Part shown: positions 4,201 through 55,842 of the stretch, piece after piece | Numbering within the stretch: the stretch's first letter is position 1 | Layout: each line of letters starts with the position of its first letter | DNA from: Halalkalirubrum salinum | GTDB lineage: Archaea; Halobacteriota; Halobacteria; Halobacteriales; Haloferacaceae | NCBI RefSeq assembly: GCF_005543295.1 | Contig: NZ_SRSG01000029.1 | Location: forward strand, 1 to 55,842 | Direction: 5' to 3' | DNA length: 55,842 nucleotides | Notes under the pieces: model-generated | Told to the model about the DNA's origin: nothing | Seen by the model: only the letters and a program-made list of their open reading frames with translations | The model's database searches: none | Program-made: the position numbers and the translations under genes

Positions 4201-6413
4201 TCGACGCGCTCTTTGCCGGTCTGTGGTCCAGTCGGCGCTGCAACGGCTCCCGATCCATCTGTTTCAATTCGGGCGATCCCTGTCGTGTCTTCGGCCAGTT
4301 CGCGGAGATCGAGTGTCTCCGCGGAATCGATCGGCTCGTCGTACGCCCACCCCTGCGGCAGTTCGTAGTGTCCGTCCGCATCGAGGTCGCCTGCCTCGAT
4401 AAATTCCCACCCTTTCCCGGTGCTCGCGTCCTCGTCGAGGTCCCGTACGAGCATCCGATGATTCGGCGTCACACGGAAGTCGACCCCATCCGTATCGAGG
4501 TCGACGAGGTCACCGCGATACTCCGGATACGAGTGGGTCTCGGTTACGGGCTTGACTTGCATCGTCATCGTGTCCGGATCGAGCGAGTACACGTGGTCTC
4601 CGACGTCCAGTTCGGTGATCGATCGGACACCCTCCGGCGTCAGGACGTCCGTGTCCGGGGTGAAGCAGTTCATGATGACCTTCACCGCGCCCTGCTGTCT
4701 GTCGTACTGGACGTACGGCTCCGATCCAGGATCGTACTCGTTCCGCAGTGATTTTTTCTCTTCGCGTTCTGTCAAGAGTTCGTCGACCATCTCACGCATG
4801 ATCCCGTCAGGCTCTTTGCGGAACCGGGTCCCATTCGGTGCACGATAGGTCTCGCCATCAAAATCCTCCTCGACCTTCGTCTCCGGGCCCGCGTTAATTG
4901 TTACCATGCACATTGGGTAGAGGCTCTTTAAATCTAGTACCGTAACGTTCTCGCGAACGCCGGTGATCGGATCGAAGACCGCCCCACCCTCGAAGTCTTC
5001 AGTTTCTTGTTGGCCCTTCGTCGGCAGGGCAAACTTCCCGTGGGCTTTGTGCAGGACGTACACGTCGACTGCGTCCCCCGGCGTCGGCGCGTCTTCGAGC
5101 TTACAGCCGACGAACTTTCGCACCTCGTCCCAGAAGGGGATGATCGCCTGCTTGCGATCGATCTCGACACACAACTCGACGTCCCGAACATTGTACTCGA
5201 GCAGCCGGGTCGGGTCGTTCTCCCACAAATCGCCGATGTCTCCGGAGTACCGCTCCTTGCCGACGTCGAGTTCTAACTCGCCGACTGCATCGAGTCGGTA
5301 GGACTCCAACTCGGTGAACTGGGTCCGTTTGTACGCGTACAGCAGATCGAAGACGACCCGCCCTTTGATGTCGGGACCGCCCCATCCCGATCGCCAGACC
5401 TCATCAACGCGGGAGAGTCGCTCGATCGAGAGATCCACGTCGGTTCTCGGATTCAACAGCTCCATCCGATCGAGCAGGTACGGCGCGTCGAAGTCCTCAA
5501 AATTCCACCCGGACAGGAGATCAGGGTCGGTCTGCTCAATGTACTCAAGGAATCCCTCGAGCATTGCTTCCTCGCTGTCGAACGATCGAATCTCGATGTC
5601 AGTGTCTTCGCGAAGCGGCTCGTACTCCGACAGGTCGTCGGGTGAGCGTCCGTCGCCCACGGGTGCTTCGTACAGCCAGCCGATGTAGGTGTCGTCGAGA
5701 GAGTCGTGACTCGTGAGACAGACGATCGGCTCCTCACCGTCCTCGGGGAAGCCGTTTCGATCGTCGACCTCGATATCGAACATGTTGACCCGAATATCGG
5801 CGTCAACCTCGGCCGGTTCGGCCTCCTCGTGGGGAATCTGAATCGGCCCATCATCTTCGAGGCGACGTGCTGGGACTCGAATACCACCGCCGAGGCCCTT
5901 GTCGATCAAAAACCGATTTGGAAAGAGTATGTCGGCTTCGTAGTGCTCAAAATCGTCGCGTATCTGTCCGACATCTCGTGGTGTTCGCGCGATGATCTTG
6001 GTGAGTGCCTCGCCGCGGATACTCTCGAACCGATCGCCGTTTTCGTCGGTGTCACGGGCGTCAAGAATGACATCGTATTCCTCGACGGGGTCAGTGTCGA
6101 GGGTCTCTGTCGGCGTGTAAAAATACGGCTCGAAGCCGAGCACACGGACGTGTTCGGCCGTGCCCTCGGCCGTCCGCCCAAAGACGTGGATCACTGGATA
6201 TTCGCTTCGACCCGATCCTTCGATCGTGTAGTCGACTTGCGTGATCGCCAGTTCCACGTATCCCGTCGCGTCGGGAAAGCGGGCGTCTTCGACGTTGACC
6301 ACGTCGCTCACGTGGCCTTCTCCGTTTCCAGCGACCGTCGCGGCTTCGGCGACATCGGCTGCCGACTCCGGATCACTCGCAGAACCGAACTGACCGAGAT
6401 CCGACTGCGTCAT
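1275..6413 (-). CDS. polB: Family B replicative DNA polymerase with two inteins
   Basis: A 1712-residue precursor; removing the two inteins leaves a 908-residue polymerase, normal for haloarchaeal PolB. The start is MTQSDLGQFG, with a T-rich box 23-30 bases upstream. The exonuclease domain shows FDIEVD, GWNFEDFDAPYLLDR and YNVRDVELC. The polymerase domain shows motif A DLKSLYP (Asp494), motif B KVIMN/SLYG and motif C YGD/TDS; the slashes mark intein insertions, both in active-site motifs. The GRKKRYAG element follows motif C. The C-terminus QTGLGSFM resembles a PCNA-binding PIP box. The enzyme can only be active after both inteins splice. It acts in chromosomal replication together with PCNA. 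Confidence 0.96.
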   Translation of the reverse strand: MTQSDLGQFGSASDPESAADVAEAATVAGNGEGHVSDVVNVEDARFPDATGYVELAITQVDYTIEGSGRSEYPVIHVFGRTAEGTAEHVRVLGFEPYFYTPTETLDTDPVEEYDVILDARDTDENGDRFESIRGEALTKIIARTPRDVGQIRDDFEHYEADILFPNRFLIDKGLGGGIRVPARRLEDDGPIQIPHEEAEPAEVDADIRVNMFDIEVDDRNGFPEDGEEPIVCLTSHDSLDDTYIGWLYEAPVGDGRSPDDLSEYEPLREDTDIEIRSFDSEEAMLEGFLEYIEQTDPDLLSGWNFEDFDAPYLLDRMELLNPRTDVDLSIERLSRVDEVWRSGWGGPDIKGRVVFDLLYAYKRTQFTELESYRLDAVGELELDVGKERYSGDIGDLWENDPTRLLEYNVRDVELCVEIDRKQAIIPFWDEVRKFVGCKLEDAPTPGDAVDVYVLHKAHGKFALPTKGQQETEDFEGGAVFDPITGVRENVTVLDLKSLYPMCMVTINAGPETKVEEDFDGETYRAPNGTRFRKEPDGIMREMVDELLTEREEKKSLRNEYDPGSEPYVQYDRQQGAVKVIMNCFTPDTDVLTPEGVRSITELDVGDHVYSLDPDTMTMQVKPVTETHSYPEYRGDLVDLDTDGVDFRVTPNHRMLVRDLDEDASTGKGWEFIEAGDLDADGHYELPQGWAYDEPIDSAETLDLRELAEDTTGIARIETDGSGAVAAPTGPQTGKERVDRVNHSDRVNHVDRAAFVKLLGWYITGGELTPTETDPYQITISVDDRSNLDAVEAVVDELVSNYHRDDGAVHFSSERLYRVLERCCGSSEKKTIPDVVFESSKDVRRAFLDVLVAGGGQYEDGGRSFTYTTESQDLRDDVLRLCLTLGHTGQYTREEGVWHVRSDQAQKPTVRMDRDSSIATATDGVYCVTVADNHTLLAGRNGTFQFVGQSLYGVTGWDRFRLYDKEGAAAVTATGREVINFTETAANELDYDVAYGDSVTGDRPVVVRDPDGMMQVKPIRELFAMATAEPAESDLVVTADGGVVSETQRGKNRRSLPGWEALSLADNGTPEWQPISQVIRHQTDTPVVRLQHKFGESETTTDHSYIVEEDGRYVESSPGDVTEPLRIPDVPAVETIETIDVYEVLSGYTRAYADGRSVGTANAETKVNRVHADDDRVWFGHAHHGALDTKVTVQRYIDLNSEDGKALVRLLAAYVTEGSASTIETTDTKFGVSISESRRSWLQQLQSDYQRLFEGAKTSIISSDSKTKRTVEWNDGEASTTYNDETLKLQMMNELSAVFFREFAGQTSRGKRVPNCVYHLPEELQALFITTAVEGDGSRKFPRYSDEYCERNFDFETTSRELAAGLSMLLTQRGQKHSLKYRSEKKSYTIRTCDFYRSGRDPVVEQIEHDGYVYDLSVETNQNFVDGVGGIVLHNTDSVMLELGRDVEKSKAIDQSFDIEEYINGRYDDFAHEELNAEVHRFQIEFEKLYRRFFQAGRKKRYAGHIIWKEGKDVDDIDITGFEYKRSDIAQITKEVQLNVIETIVTGEDIEADLEEVKTYLNEIITGFLNGERSLEEIGIPGGIGKRLSNYDTDTAQVRGAKYANHMLGTNFDRGSKPKRLYLKKVHPDFWQRMENERGLNPQTDLLYGEFKRNPDVICFEYADQVPAEFEIDWEKMLEKTLKGPIERVIEALGMSWDEVKSGQEQTGLGSFM
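2112..3425 (-). other. Intein 2 of PolB (motif C site) with LAGLIDADG endonuclease
   Basis: 438 residues (997-1434 of the precursor), inserted inside the catalytic YGDTDS motif (YGD/TDS). It begins with Ser (SVTGDRPVVV) and ends GGIVLHN, followed by Thr of the extein. The endonuclease helices LLAAYVTEGS and LFITTAVEGDGS keep an acidic residue at the catalytic position, so this element may still be able to home. The terminal block is YDLSVETNQNFVDG. Compared with intein 1 it is the more complete element. Confidence 0.9.
3570..4667 (-). other. Intein 1 of PolB (motif B site), endonuclease probably inactive
   Basis: 366 residues (583-948 of the precursor), inserted between Asn and Ser of motif B (VIMN/SLYG). 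It begins CFTPDTDVLTPEG, a standard N-terminal splicing block with Cys1. It ends VADNHTLLAG...FQFVGQ, so the last two residues are Gly-Gln instead of the usual His-Asn. Two LAGLIDADG-like helices are recognisable, LLGWYITGGEL and FLDVLVAGGGQY, but the acidic residue expected before the final Gly is Gly in both. The endonuclease domain therefore looks dead, while splicing must still work for the polymerase to function. Confidence 0.9.
4170..4205. repeat. Two tandem 18-bp units inside intein 1
   Basis: GTGATTGACGCGATCGCT is followed directly by the same sequence with AC in place of CT at the end. On the coding strand this gives the repeat RVNHSDRVNHVDR just ahead of the first degenerate LAGLIDADG helix. 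Confidence 0.7.
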
Positions 6414-6434
6414 ACCACACGTACCGCCCTGCTC

Positions 6435-6444
6435 GATAAAAAGG
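6435..6444 (-). promoter_or_regulatory. TATA-like box of polB
   Basis: On the minus strand the box reads CCTTTTTATC, centred about 26 bases ahead of the polB start at 6413. This is the spacing expected for a leaderless haloarchaeal transcript. Confidence 0.5.
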
Positions 6445-6650
6445 ACGGCCATTCGATGGTCGTCAATCAATCTCGTTCGATTGTCACTATAGTAATGTTT
6501 GCAACGCTTTGCAACAACCACCTCGAAATGCAGTCTGAGAGTGCGTGAGCCGGTAGTTTCTGAATCGAAGTGAAAAAATAATTGCAAACGCTACGATAGT
6601 TGATCCTGTTCGATCGTTTGGGTCCGGCAAAACGTTGTACTGAACAAAAG

Positions 6651-6658
6651 ACATATAG
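6651..6658 (+). promoter_or_regulatory. TATA-like box of the DUF7331-like gene
   Basis: ACATATAG lies about 30 bases before the ATG at 6685. The remainder of the polB-DUF7331 gap (6414-6684) is divergent-promoter sequence without a recognisable gene. Confidence 0.45.
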
Positions 6659-6684
6659 CCTGTTATGATATACCATGTGTTGGT

Positions 6685-6864
6685 ATGACAAACCGCGCCA
6701 ACGACAACGAGTTGGATCGTGCCGACGGAGTTCCCGCCCTACCGGCGGGCGAGACAACCGTCGAGACGTACGACGTTGAGAACGGCGTGGTATTCTATGA
6801 CGCACAGAATCCCCTCGCATGGCTCGAATCCTCGAGCGTCGTTCGGCTCAAGGACTACGCCTGA
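6685..6864 (+). CDS. Small acidic protein, DUF7331-like
   Basis: A 59-residue frame beginning MTNRANDNELDRADG. The C-terminal half (VETYDVENGVVFYDAQNPLA, then WLES and KDYA at the end) matches a small protein family conserved across haloarchaea, which I recall as DUF7331. Its function is unknown. There is no signal peptide or membrane segment. It stands alone, divergent from polB, with its own TATA-like box. Confidence 0.75.
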   Translation: MTNRANDNELDRADGVPALPAGETTVETYDVENGVVFYDAQNPLAWLESSSVVRLKDYA

Positions 6865-6978
6865 TTCCGACTACACAGGCCCGCCTGGTCCCCACTACGG
6901 TCTGTGCAGATCAATCCTCTTTCAACGATCGCCGCGCACAAACCAACGTTTTTGCGGCTAGCTCTCTGACAATGTGCA

Positions 6979-7380
6979 ATGAGCAACGACGGAAAGGGAC
7001 CATCTGATCGGGTCGCCGACTACGTCAATCGGTATGCATCCGATGGCGAGGAGCTGGGCGGAATTCCGCTTCTCGGATCCACGGGCGACGGGGAATTCAC
7101 TACCGACATCGAAGCGGAGTCCAAGCAGCTCGAACAGGCGATTAAGAACACCGACCCTGCCATCACGAAGCGATTCGTCGTCGCGGTGATCTTCGCAAAC
7201 GTCGGCTTGCTGTCGACGAGTCTCGGTGCGATGTTTATGATCTTCCGAGGCGACCTCAACCTCGGCGGAATACTGCTCGTCATCGGACTTTTCGCGATCG
7301 CACAGACCTATCGACAGTACCGCGCCCACAACGCGTACGTGGCCGCCAAATCCGATCGGGGACCACCACAAAACGGCTAA
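6979..7380 (+). CDS. Two-helix membrane protein, DUF7322-like
   Basis: 133 residues. The N-terminal 55 residues are acidic and soluble. Two hydrophobic helices follow: about 67-88 (FVVAVIFANVGLLSTSLGAM) and 94-112 (LGGILLVIGLFAIAQTY), then a short basic/polar tail. The pattern of a variable acidic head plus this helical hairpin resembles a haloarchaeal membrane family (DUF7322, from memory). A T-rich box sits near 6941-6950. Its role is unknown. It runs in the same direction as the following DUF7346-like gene, 25 bases away, so the two may be co-transcribed. Confidence 0.7.
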   Translation: MSNDGKGPSDRVADYVNRYASDGEELGGIPLLGSTGDGEFTTDIEAESKQLEQAIKNTDPAITKRFVVAVIFANVGLLSTSLGAMFMIFRGDLNLGGILLVIGLFAIAQTYRQYRAHNAYVAAKSDRGPPQNG

Positions 7381-7405
7381 CTTCCTGCCGCTCAGAGAGT
7401 TGTCC

Positions 7406-7888
7406 ATGCGAACGGTCCGCGACGCAGACGGCAAGACGTACCTCCTCCGAAAAGAGTCCAGTGAGTCTGCCCTCCTATACGACCCCAAATCCGGCACGGA
7501 GCTGTATCGCCCACGATCGGAACTCGAACTCGTTTCGGATGAATCGGCGCTCACGACGGCCGCGTTGGCGATTCCGGCCCCGGTTCGTCGAATTCTTTCG
7601 GCGACACACAACGACCGCTCGATCGGCCTCCTCGTCACCGTGGTTGACCGCGGACCGATCGCTGCTGTCGATCTCGTTGCCGTCTCTGACCTCTGCGAGA
7701 GCGATCTCCTCGGGTTACTCTCGGAGTTCCGGGCGGCGGGACTCGTTGATGAGACCCACGTCGCCGGCACCCGCGGCTACGAAGCTACCCCGCTTGCGGT
7801 CGACGGTGTCAACACGCTTCGATCGATCGAATCAGATCGGGGCGAATCGACGACGGATCGATCGGCCGGCACGACAGCCGAGGAGTAA
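7406..7888 (+). CDS. Haloarchaeal conserved protein, DUF7346-like
   Basis: 160 residues starting MRTVRDADGKTYLLRKESS. The N-terminus looks like a small beta-rich domain (residues 1-45). The central region (about 65-120, IGLLVTVVDRGPIAAVDLVA followed by LLGLLSEFRAAGLVDE) reads like a winged helix-turn-helix. The family is conserved beside mre11/rad50 in haloarchaea (DUF7346, from memory), and here it converges on rad50 with only 6 bases between the two stop codons. A DNA-related role is possible but unproven. A TTG two codons upstream is an alternative start. Confidence 0.7.
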   Translation: MRTVRDADGKTYLLRKESSESALLYDPKSGTELYRPRSELELVSDESALTTAALAIPAPVRRILSATHNDRSIGLLVTVVDRGPIAAVDLVAVSDLCESDLLGLLSEFRAAGLVDETHVAGTRGYEATPLAVDGVNTLRSIESDRGESTTDRSAGTTAEE

Positions 7889-29483: not shown

Positions 29484-30227
29484 GTGACGGTCTTTTCGCT
29501 GTGTCGGCTGTGGCGGCCCGCACACTTCGCCGACTGGTATCTGTTCGGTGCGGAGTACGTCGAGACTGTGGCTGATGGGATGGGTTTTGACACGAGCGAG
29601 TTTGTTGACTACGAGGCTGGCGTTCAGGCACTCGAACAGGGTGTTGGTGGCTCGGACGCTTCCGAGTCGCTCCGGCGATCGATCGTCGCCGACCTCCTCG
29701 CTGATGCGCGATTCTGTGAGCCGTTCTGTGAGTGGATGCCGCTTTGGTACGAGGCGGTGCTCATTGCGCCCGTGAAGTACGTCGATATCAGGCTTACTCG
29801 GACCGCCCAATCGCTGGTGAGCAACCCTGCAAATCGCACGTCTGTTCGGGCTCCGACCTTCTCGCGGCCCCGAGACGTGCGATTCAATGGGAAGACAGCA
29901 GTGAGCCACGTCTCTGGGTTCGCCGATCGATTCGTGTTTGCGGACGCGATTCTCCACTTGGAGTGGTTCGTCCACGTCGCTCGTGAGTCGGGCATCGAGG
30001 TCCCGCAGTCGCTCGTCGATCGGACATACGAGGAGACGGTCGCCCACTACGCCGACGGTCAGCCATTCTCGCAAGATGTCCGACGATTCCAGGCGCTGTT
30101 GTTTGCCGACGATCGCTGGGTCCGGGGAATAAACGAGGGGTACGGACTGAACAGCGCGTTGTTCGACGTCTGGGAGCGGATTCTATCGGCCGAGCGGCGG
30201 CGCTTGGAGGCTGGGCTCGATCGGTGA
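29484..30227 (+). CDS. Uncharacterised protein downstream of topA
   Basis: 247 residues from a GTG two bases after the topA stop, which suggests co-transcription. An ATG 32 codons later (MGFDTSEFVDYEAG) is the alternative start. The protein is soluble, rich in Trp/Phe/Tyr (CEWMPLWYEAV, HLEWFVHVAR, DDRWVRGINEGYGLN) and looks mostly helical. Cysteines in FCEPFCEW are the only potential metal ligands. I do not recognise a family. The close spacing to topA is the only clue to function. Confidence 0.6.
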   Translation: MTVFSLCRLWRPAHFADWYLFGAEYVETVADGMGFDTSEFVDYEAGVQALEQGVGGSDASESLRRSIVADLLADARFCEPFCEWMPLWYEAVLIAPVKYVDIRLTRTAQSLVSNPANRTSVRAPTFSRPRDVRFNGKTAVSHVSGFADRFVFADAILHLEWFVHVARESGIEVPQSLVDRTYEETVAHYADGQPFSQDVRRFQALLFADDRWVRGINEGYGLNSALFDVWERILSAERRRLEAGLDR

Positions 30228-34715: not shown

Positions 34716-34801
34716 GCCGGACAAGGAGGCGCGATCGACTTAGCAGTTGTTGGATATCGCTCTAGGCTGTTCGGCATTTGTTCGGTGTTTGATTGAGGAC
34801 G

Positions 34802-34892
34802 GGTGGCGTGCTTGTTCATGGACTGTCAGCGTGCTCGCCCGAGAACTGGTGGCTTGCATGCTCAGGAGTGTCGGCGTGCTCGACCAAGAGCG
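34802..34892. repeat. Two degenerate 46-bp direct repeats upstream of tRNA-Ser
   Basis: The copies start at 34802 (GGTGGCGTGCTTGTTCATGG) and 34848 (GGTGGCTTGCATGCTCAGGA), and both end in a GCGTGCTCG block. They lie in the 34716-34959 gap, which has no gene that I can support. Confidence 0.55.
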
Positions 34893-34959: not shown

Positions 34960-35044
34960 GCCGAGGTAGCCTAGCCTGGCCAAGGCGGTAGATTCGAAAT
35001 CTACTGTCCATTCGGACACGTGAGTTCAAATCTCACCCTCGGCG
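34960..35044 (+). tRNA. tRNA-Ser (anticodon CGA)
   Basis: 85 bases. Acceptor arms GCCGAGG and CCTCGGC pair fully, with discriminator G. The anticodon stem GTAGA/TCTAC encloses TTCGAAA, giving anticodon CGA (codon UCG). A long variable arm (TGTCCATTCGGACAC) is typical of serine tRNAs. The T arm is GTGAG-TTCAAAT-CTCAC. No CCA is encoded and no intron is seen. The last 21 bases are repeated three times downstream. Confidence 0.95.
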
Positions 35045-35413
35045 CTTCTGCCGCGAACACTACTCCGAGATCCCTCTGGGGATCTCGGACCCGTGAGCGG
35101 CTGTGCGTGAGCCGTGAGATTTGAACCAAGGAGCGGAGCGACTGCGGTTCAAATCTCACCCTCGGCGTTTTTATCGTAAACATCACTCTGAGATTCCTCT
35201 GTGAATTTCGGATCCGTGAGTGGTTGTGCGTGAGCCGTGAGATTTGAATCAAGGAGCGAAGCGACTGCGGTTCAAATCTCACCCTCGGCGTTTTTATCGT
35301 AAACATCACTCTGAGATTCCTCTGTGAATTTCGGATCCGTGAGTGGTTGTGCGTGAGCCGTGAGATTTGAATCAAGGAGCGAAGCGACTACGGTTCAAAT
35401 CTCACTCTCGGCG
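35045..35413. repeat. Three tandem 123-bp units, each ending in a tRNA-Ser 3' end
   Basis: Starting directly after the tRNA, units occupy 35045-35167, 35168-35290 and 35291-35413. Each ends with a copy of the last 21 bases of the tRNA (GTTCAAATCTCACCCTCGGC plus G): exact in units 1 and 2, one mismatch in unit 3. Units 2 and 3 differ at two positions only; unit 1 is more diverged. Each unit also has GTGAGATTTGAA, the reverse complement of TTCAAATCTCAC, giving a 12-bp hairpin with a 22-base loop. GTTTTT follows units 1, 2 and 3. This array accounts for the 399-base stretch without a gene. Confidence 0.95.
35167..35172 (+). terminator. First T-tract after tRNA-Ser
   Basis: GTTTTT directly follows the hairpin of repeat unit 1. 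The same tract recurs at 35290 and 35413. The tRNA itself is followed by CTTCTGCC, so this is the first plausible archaeal terminator for its transcript, implying a trailer that includes unit 1. Confidence 0.4.
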
Positions 35414-35443
35414 TTTTTATCGCCGATCGAACCCAGTGTGATG

Positions 35444-36205
35444 TTATTTGTCCTTCTTTTCGTTGTCCGCTGCATCGCTATCTGACTCGTCGTCTCCCTC
35501 GTTCTCTTCGTCGCCATCTGACAGCGTATCGGTCGTGTCTGAGTCTGATTCCTTCCCTTCGATCGCCTTTCGCGCCTCCGCGGCGACCGCCTCTTTTACC
35601 TGCCGGCCGACGGCATTTTCGACCTCTGTGCTCACCGACTCACCAATCTGATTCGTCACCTCGTCGCTTACGATCCGCCCGACTTGGTCGGCCACCCCTG
35701 TTATTTCGTTGCTCATAGTGTCCTCGACAGACTTGCGGACCTGCTTTTCGACGGTATCTTCGACCGTCTTCTCAACCGAATCGCCGACTGATTTCTCCAC
35801 CTCCTTTTCGACGGTATCTTCGACCGTTTTTTCGACGGTATCTTTCACCGTCTTTTCGACCGAATCCTCGACCGATTTCTCGACTTCTTTGCTAACGGTA
35901 TCTTCGACCGTCTTTTCGACCGAGTCACCGACTGTTTTTTTGACTTCCTTGCTAACGGTATCCTCAACCGATTTCTCGACCTCCTTGCGAACCGAATCAC
36001 CAACCGTCCTTTCGACCTCACGTGTCATCCAGTCGGGGTCGAACCGCATCATCTTCCAGGCGATATGGATAACGTACGACACGAGAACCCCGATTCCGAA
36101 GGCGATCCCTGTGATCGTTCCGACGGCAAGCATGAGTACGACGGCGACGAAAATCAAGGCCCCATACAACAGATCGACGATGAAATCGACACGATTTGGC
36201 GTCAT
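35444..36205 (-). CDS. Membrane-anchored protein with valine every fourth residue
   Basis: 253 residues. Hydrophobic helices at about 8-28 and 30-48 anchor it. From residue 64 to 170 every fourth residue is Val (25 times, then Met and Ile), as in VEKTVEDTVSKEVEKSV. After one 3-residue step the pattern resumes to residue 218 with Val, Ile or Ala. The spacer triplets are charged or polar (EKT, EDT, EKS, GDS). The last 35 residues are extremely acidic. This is a strict tetrad repeat of about 39 units, unlike a heptad coiled coil. I do not recognise a family. It converges on the tRNA-Ser array. Confidence 0.8.
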   Translation of the reverse strand: MTPNRVDFIVDLLYGALIFVAVVLMLAVGTITGIAFGIGVLVSYVIHIAWKMMRFDPDWMTREVERTVGDSVRKEVEKSVEDTVSKEVKKTVGDSVEKTVEDTVSKEVEKSVEDSVEKTVKDTVEKTVEDTVEKEVEKSVGDSVEKTVEDTVEKQVRKSVEDTMSNEITGVADQVGRIVSDEVTNQIGESVSTEVENAVGRQVKEAVAAEARKAIEGKESDSDTTDTLSDGDEENEGDDESDSDAADNEKKDK

Positions 36206-38738: not shown

Positions 38739-38784
38739 GAATTGCCACAGGCTGTCTGGAATGATAGGCGTACGGGTTTCGATC

Positions 38785-38880
38785 GTGTCGATCGTGCCGG
38801 TTGTGTCGGTCGTGTCGATCGTGCCGGTTGTGTCGGTCGTGTCGATCGTGCCGGTTGTGTCGGTCGTGTCGATCGGTTCG
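38785..38880. repeat. Three and a half tandem 27-bp units
   Basis: Units starting GTGTCGATCGTGCCGGTTGT lie at 38785, 38812 and 38839, with a partial fourth from 38866. The copies are identical. The array fills the gap between two divergent genes (DUF192 and the HNH-like protein). It is open in several frames, but the start of the HNH-like gene lies beyond it. Confidence 0.9.
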
Positions 38881-55695: not shown

Positions 55696-55725
55696 CCGGT
55701 GGTCTCCAGAGAGTGACGATCACTT

Positions 55726-55842
55726 GCTACTGTTGGATTTGTACTCCCTGCACTCGCTACTGTTAGATTCGTACTCCTGCACTCGCTACTGTTAGATTCG
55801 TACTCCTGCACTCGCTACTGTTAGATTCGTACTCCTGCACTC
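55726..55842. repeat. Tandem 29-bp repeat running off the window end
   Basis: Copies of GCTACTGTTAGATTCGTACT plus CCTGCACTC start at 55756, 55785 and 55814, exactly 29 bp apart. A diverged first copy of 30 bp starts at 55726. There are no unique spacers. The array is cut by the window edge so its full length is unknown. The stretch 55696-55725 holds nothing else. Confidence 0.9.

Follow-up and report, generated by a model that had tools for sequence, protein, structure and literature searches.

Directly behind the tRNA-Ser(CGA) gene of Halalkalirubrum salinum, in a window of 55,842 nucleotides (the whole stretch of DNA that was analyzed), the 3' end of the tRNA recurs several times, which raises the question of what these repeats are and how they came to be there. 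The tRNA gene lies on the plus strand, as do all the array features described below, at 34960..35045 (ARAGORN 34960-35045, Rfam 34960-35044), and the repeated segment is its tail, from the T-loop to the discriminator (35025-35044). The original prediction held that the tail recurs at 35147, 35270, and 35393 with a 123-bp spacing and that units 2 and 3 differ at two positions. Both statements are right. The repeated segment corresponds to the last 20-21 bases of the tRNA, and the copies lie at 35148..35167 (TTCAAATCTCACCCTCGGCG, 20/20 identity with the tRNA), 35271..35290 (20/20), and 35394..35413 (19/20), the third having a single C to T mismatch (CTCACTCTC). Tandem Repeats Finder (TRF) reports a 123-bp period with 3.2 copies and 92% matches over 35024-35422, including the tRNA tail. 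Units 2 and 3 differ at 2/123 positions, while units 1 and 2 differ at 17.

Each 123-bp unit also has an internal structure that was missed by the original prediction. In unit 1, the element runs from the tRNA tail to the first tail copy (35045..35147) and contains two palindromes. Hairpin A (35050..35101), which reads GCCGC-GAACACTAC-(TCCGAGATCCC TCTG GGGATCTCGGA)-CCCGTGA-GCGGC and was found by RNA folding and by DNA folding with a z-score of -5.1, starts approximately 5 nt after the preceding tail, and its GARC..GYGA motif recurs in other elements. Hairpin B (35114..35159; 14-bp perfect arms, DNA fold z-score of -5.2) is composed of an inverted T-loop/T-stem arm (GTGAGATTTGAACC), a tip (AAGGAGCGGAGCGACTGC), and a second arm (GGTTCAAATCTCAC). 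Throughout the array, such an inverted T-loop/T-stem arm is found 18-22 nt upstream of each tail copy, the order being GTGAGATTTGAAyC (inverted T-loop/T-stem), the tip AAGGAGCGnAGCGACTrC, and then the tail copy. In unit 2, in register at +123, hairpin A occupies 35173..35224 (tandem repeat and fold) and hairpin B 35237..35282 (inverted repeat and DNA fold), with GCGAAGC in its tip; in unit 3, they occupy 35296..35347 (tandem repeat and fold) and 35360..35405 (inverted repeat), respectively. Folded as RNA, the repeat stretch as a whole has a z-score of -8.3, shuffled sequence never folding equally well, and the DNA fold of the array hairpins is also far better than that of shuffled sequence. 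When the window was searched with Rfam covariance models, the tRNA was the sole match, and the units match no known structured RNA family.

The proposal that the array arose by local amplification is supported. Units 2 and 3 have almost the same sequence, and where this genome has three units, the congener G001 has one at the same tRNA; unit 1 closely resembles that single unit (7/123 differences). Unit number and sequence differ between genera as well, so the identity across distant species that would argue against recent amplification is absent. On the branch of units 2 and 3, compared with unit 1 and the congener unit over 35169-35414, 11 of the 15 substitutions are C>T and the other 4 are G>A, as if these two units were an older duplicate pair in decay, with a well-maintained unit 1 in front of them. 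The changes hinted at a C-to-T (RIP-like) process acting genome-wide, which was rejected when tail copies overall were found to have no such bias.

The array lies among ordinary genes, with a MoxR-type AAA ATPase and DUF58/DUF4129 genes to one side of it and, to the other, a LeuA-type synthase and a coiled-coil protein resembling DUF445. In agreement with the original prediction, no integrase turned up in the 18 main flanking ORFs scanned, from ~21.8 to 47.7 kb, and the units themselves have no coding capacity. Several other repeats were seen in the window. The protein encoded at 35444-36205 (minus strand) is 253 aa long, has a membrane segment at its N terminus and a long array of VEKTVEDTVEKSVED-like repeats, and gives a sub-threshold DUF445 match; the array is encoded by 12/24/36/60/84-bp DNA repeats (35744-36019). 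There are also 1) a 45-bp repeat (34795-34889, 2.1 copies) immediately 5' of the tRNA-Ser promoter region, 2) a 27-bp tandem repeat (38779-38875, TCGGTCGTGTCGATCGTGCCGGTTGTG, 3.6 copies with 98% matches), 3) a 29-bp tandem repeat (55721-55842, CACTCGCTACTGTTAGATTCGTACTCCTG, ~4 copies) that runs into an assembly gap, and 4) a perfect 12-bp inverted repeat, AATCGCACGTCT/AGACGTGCGATT, with a 29-nt loop (29832-29884).

How widespread are such units? They recur behind close to half of the tRNA genes in this genome, a point that also escaped the original prediction. A genome-wide search for an inverted T-loop facing a T-loop returned 11 hairpins besides the tRNA itself, against 0 for a reversed-pattern control. 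Nearly all of them lie just 3' of tRNA genes, namely Ser(CGA), Ser(GGA), two Leu, Gln, and Val, with one orphan in addition. We rejected the possibility that hairpins of the CGAGCGNAGCGAG kind occur everywhere in this genome, since there are 12 sites, 7 of them beside tRNA genes. In the order as a whole, the hairpin pattern is present in 125/146 genomes and the reversed-pattern control in none, with a minority of the matches attributable to chance or to tRNA-Ser genes as such; elsewhere in the phylum, hairpin matches drop to the chance level of the control. An exact-pattern scan of the genomes of 84,980 species identified at least 119 matching stretches, and among the 80 matches listed with titles all bear haloarchaeal names or MAG labels, apart from one titled only "Euryarchaeota archaeon." All these pattern-based counts miss diverged elements and those with unusual T-loops. 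In the data searched, the element is restricted to Halobacteria. At the loci that were read, nearly all hairpins with a recognizable tRNA tail lie within ~500 bp downstream of a tRNA gene on the same strand, and orphan hairpins mostly bear a tRNA-type tail or sit behind a tRNA missed by the finder. The last 20 bases of a tRNA gene are repeated within 300 bp behind 20/42 tRNA genes in this genome and 20/44 in the congener, a few of these repeats being a second identical tRNA gene (tandem tRNA-Asp), while foreign tails are found there in 1/868 cases. The remaining half of the tRNA genes have plain trailers. On these findings, the array in the window belongs to a family of short DNA elements that lie directly behind tRNA genes across the haloarchaea, and is a member that was amplified locally in tandem. 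We found no description of the element in the open-access literature, and the family is apparently undescribed.

Wherever they were read, the units are similarly short, usually ~75-130 bp and roughly 100 bp, and share the same internal plan, in which hairpin A is followed by a spacer and by hairpin B, whose stem is formed by an inverted and a direct copy of the host T-loop. The direct copy extends to the discriminator, the last base of the tRNA: identity is 0.84-1.0 from two bases before the T-loop to the discriminator and ~0.5 beyond. Hairpin A is present at 13/20 tRNA genes with a tail copy in this genome and 10/20 in the congener, versus 0/22 and 1/24 of those without (Fisher's exact test, 3e-6 and 9e-4), and the sole exception is a locus that has lost its copy. 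Since hairpin A occurs almost only where there is a tail copy, hairpin A, hairpin B, and the tail copy are parts of one element.

The stems covary and conserve tandem G.A pairs. In the commonest tip family (yCAGGGA...GACCGtGG), tip pairs within the constant frame are 96-97% Watson-Crick, versus 42% and 77% with shuffled partners, and CG, TA, and GC are all used. In this covariation set, the search pattern itself specified the outer G.A positions, and the same G.A residues are found in most tips of a set not selected on the tip. In hairpin A, the two sides switch together between GAAC/GTGA and GAGC/GCGA (130 matched versus 19 mixed). GNA triloops are the commonest central loops, and triloops of the d(GCGNAGC) type have been described as extraordinarily stable in DNA (PMC4686876). 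There is a second tip family, AGACGAGTCGCA...CGTCTCGGCGwGG, which shows the same behavior in 25 genomes, behind Val, Lys, Leu, Ala, Ser, Ile, and Met genes, with most members carrying the tail of the local tRNA.

The copies are tailored to the tRNA behind which they lie. Tail copies are perfect in 107/168 cases. Where the tail of a tRNA departs from the majority sequence of its isotype, the copy has the same variant in 124 cases, the majority base in 9, and another base in 1. The inverted arm is tailored as well, the unusual T-loops TTCAACT and TTCAATT being faced by AGTTGAA and AATTGAA, and the own inverted 12-mer is matched at 11 or more positions in 40% of elements, versus 0.7% for foreign ones. 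Simple insertion with target duplication is therefore not a sufficient explanation on its own, since it does not account for inverted arms that match unusual T-loops. At L390 of Halorubrum ezzemoulense, the T-loop of a tRNA-Ser(GGA)-like gene that ARAGORN missed reads TGCAAAT, and the tail copy in the element behind this gene carries the normal form, TTCAAAT.

The elements come and go as complete units, and the tRNA stays intact. In our sample of one genome per species, we compared 30 tRNA-Leu(CAA) loci of one genus (including Halorubrum amylolyticum), of which 14 are occupied, 11 are exactly empty, 4 have internal deletions, and 1 is disrupted. In the empty sites, the tRNA runs straight into the sequence found after the tail copy at other loci. 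When mapped on a tree of the upstream flank, occupied and empty sites are interspersed, with ~8 state changes and at least 3 to 4 of them on well-supported branches, so occupancy has changed repeatedly. These changes are mostly losses because the element and its flank are also found in the genus of the window; no clean gain was seen among the 30 loci of this genus, where the polymorphism may reflect loss only. Precise occupied and empty sites, together with boundaries from the T-loop to the tRNA end like those of T-loop/3'-end integrases, mark the units as discrete elements and make it doubtful that they are, as originally stated, far too short to be integrated elements. At the same tRNA gene, a degenerate second tRNA-Leu copy, common to two genera, lies downstream of tRNA-Leu(CAA) at locus L459 (G000:C42) and Halorubrum loci L519, L522, and L528; its tail is intact, and its anticodon/variable region is followed by an insertion rich in GAGCGA.

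Do the hairpins act as DNA or as RNA? Selection on an RNA helix should favor G.U pairs, and we therefore counted G.T and A.C mispairs, which number 28/18 in tips, 13/6 in hairpin A, and 38/38 in arms, versus 83/0 in the tRNA stems of the same loci; the signal is weaker in the inner tip pairs alone, with 7 to 3. The strong excess of G.U over A.C expected in the stems of a functional RNA hairpin is thus not seen in the element, which suggests folding as DNA rather than RNA. This argument is statistical, with G.T slightly in excess of A.C in tips, and while it points to DNA, some RNA role is possible. From these counts we infer that the element probably works as folded single-stranded or cruciform DNA. 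A terminator or an RNA switch, suggested by the strong RNA fold, was downgraded by the same mispair test and by the absence of the element behind half of the tRNA genes. The earlier suggestion that the array yields tRNA-derived small RNAs likewise finds no support in the pairing patterns, since A.C is tolerated about as well as G.T, which is not the case in tRNA stems.

Several known systems resemble the element in part. Integrative elements inserted in tRNA genes by tyrosine integrases acting at the T-loop or 3' end (PMC8371274) are alike in their direct repeat from the T-loop to the 3' end, the intact tRNA, and possible tandem accretion, and here we found both precise empty sites in relatives and a direct repeat of the att type that begins inside the tRNA and extends to its 3' end. 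The present units differ in being ~100 bp long, lacking an integrase, having an inverted T-loop hairpin, and occurring behind half of the tRNA genes. They also differ in their absence from viral contigs: three collection scans of viral contigs revealed no matching attP and no attachment site with the hairpin, the only tip match being a host tRNA flank, and a viral attachment site is thus unsupported. PATEs, which are small palindromic mobile repeats of haloarchaea, show neither target duplication nor a link to tRNA genes (PMC3119063); they are similarly short and noncoding with palindromes near the ends, whereas the present elements carry the host tRNA tail, and this 20-bp duplication sets them apart from PATEs and IS200-IS605-derived repeats.

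A structural parallel may be drawn with integron attC sites and the CTXphi attP(+) site, which are folded single-stranded recombination sites consisting of an imperfect hairpin with conserved noncanonical positions and a variable terminal stem-loop. The present element has all these features, with a recombination-type sequence in its stem, covarying stems, and conserved unpaired or noncanonical positions. Unlike those sites, it has no cassette genes and no linked recombinase, and its stem derives from the tRNA T-loop.

The best overall explanation of these findings, to which we give a little less than an even chance, is a recombinase-inserted, DNA-folded, and tRNA-tailored family of elements that was amplified locally in the window. 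The first unit behind a tRNA gene would be placed there by site-specific insertion at the T-loop/3' end of that gene, the T-loop being one of three tRNA-gene regions used by integrases (PMC8371274). The inserting recombinase would be supplied in trans and would recognize the folded hairpin, in whose top strand the T-loop would be exposed in duplex form, bordered by a constant noncanonical stem; strand exchange would take place within the T-loop, the limits of the repeat being those expected. A recombinase acting on a folded hairpin is our leading guess for the origin, most likely but unproven, and if it holds, the elements would be, with the same proviso, nonautonomous mini integrative elements. 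Once in place, the 20-bp direct tail repeats could recombine, leading to precise loss, tandem gain, and homogenization of units, while intrastrand hairpin repair and tail exchange could keep the copies and the inverted arm matched to the tRNA. A more ambitious reading, which we put forward tentatively and judge about half as likely to be right as wrong, is that ~100 bp of hairpin DNA spreads between haloarchaeal tRNA genes, writing in direct and inverted copies of the end of each new host, and that the folded strand, with its tandem sheared G.A pairs and GNA mini-hairpin tips, is the recognition structure for a recombinase or a repair process. The element would then be mobile or self-maintaining and previously undescribed.

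The strongest rival is a static host feature, an old structural DNA element behind tRNA genes (insulator, roadblock, integrase decoy, or replication-transcription buffer) that is inherited vertically, immobile, and kept matched by gene conversion and intrastrand hairpin repair. That the two congeners largely share elements at the same tRNA genes, that copies are homogenized with their own tRNA (124:10), that tips are alike at different tRNA genes of one genome, and that no recombinase could be linked to the elements would all fit. We nevertheless consider it rather unlikely, since half of the tRNA genes lack the element and their trailers lack hairpin A, presence and absence are precise and scattered within one genus, and two unrelated tip families each extend across many isotypes. 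An RNA element is less probable, and we would be surprised if it were correct. According to this rival, the anti-T-arm of a read-through transcript pairs with either the T-arm of the tRNA or the decoy copy and affects tRNA folding, 3' processing, or decay, or gives rise to small RNAs. All tRNA-linked cases do lie on the strand of the tRNA, the RNA fold is very stable, and the tailored arms could anneal to the tRNA itself, but A.C is about as common as G.T in the element and absent from tRNA stems in the same genomes, most loops are triloops like those of DNA mini-hairpins, and half of the tRNA genes have no element.

Hardly more convincing, and if anything slightly less so, is the notion of scars, in which a provirus or plasmid integrated at the tRNA lost its interior and left both attachment arms. 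It agrees with repeat limits equal to those of T-loop/3'-end integration sites (regions: PMC8371274) and with a locus of Haloterrigena salina (L354), where a 3.1-kb mobile element separates the tRNA from its hairpin element; at its right end, however, the mobile element has no inverted T-loop hairpin, no viral contig bears the tip except for the host tRNA flank, and unit lengths are short and similar with a constant internal plan. The 3.1-kb element itself (~4753-7790, minus orientation, behind tRNA-Val(CAC)) encodes a 501-aa P-loop-type protein. It also bears on the earlier suggestion that the array offers several attachment sites: the copies may do so, although in this one clear case the mobile element sits at the tRNA itself and not at a copy. 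Insertion by a Cas1/casposase-type enzyme is very improbable. Insertion of casposons at the 3' ends of tRNAs, with duplication of the target, has been described (PMC6614799), and here too a fixed segment, the tRNA tail, is duplicated next to the tRNA 3' end. However, no terminal inverted repeats were found in the units read, coding capacity is lacking, and 28/40 related genomes have no Cas1, including the element carriers G045 and G001, so the phyletic distribution of Cas1 is unsupportive.

Behind approximately half of haloarchaeal tRNA genes, there is thus an element whose sequence is dictated by the preceding tRNA. On its own, a repeated tRNA tail in a haloarchaeon does not prove that a provirus has integrated. 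The family offers a naturally replicated, genome-wide system for how short DNA palindromes arise, are copied, stay matched, and are precisely lost, and it may reveal an archaeal recombinase acting on folded DNA.
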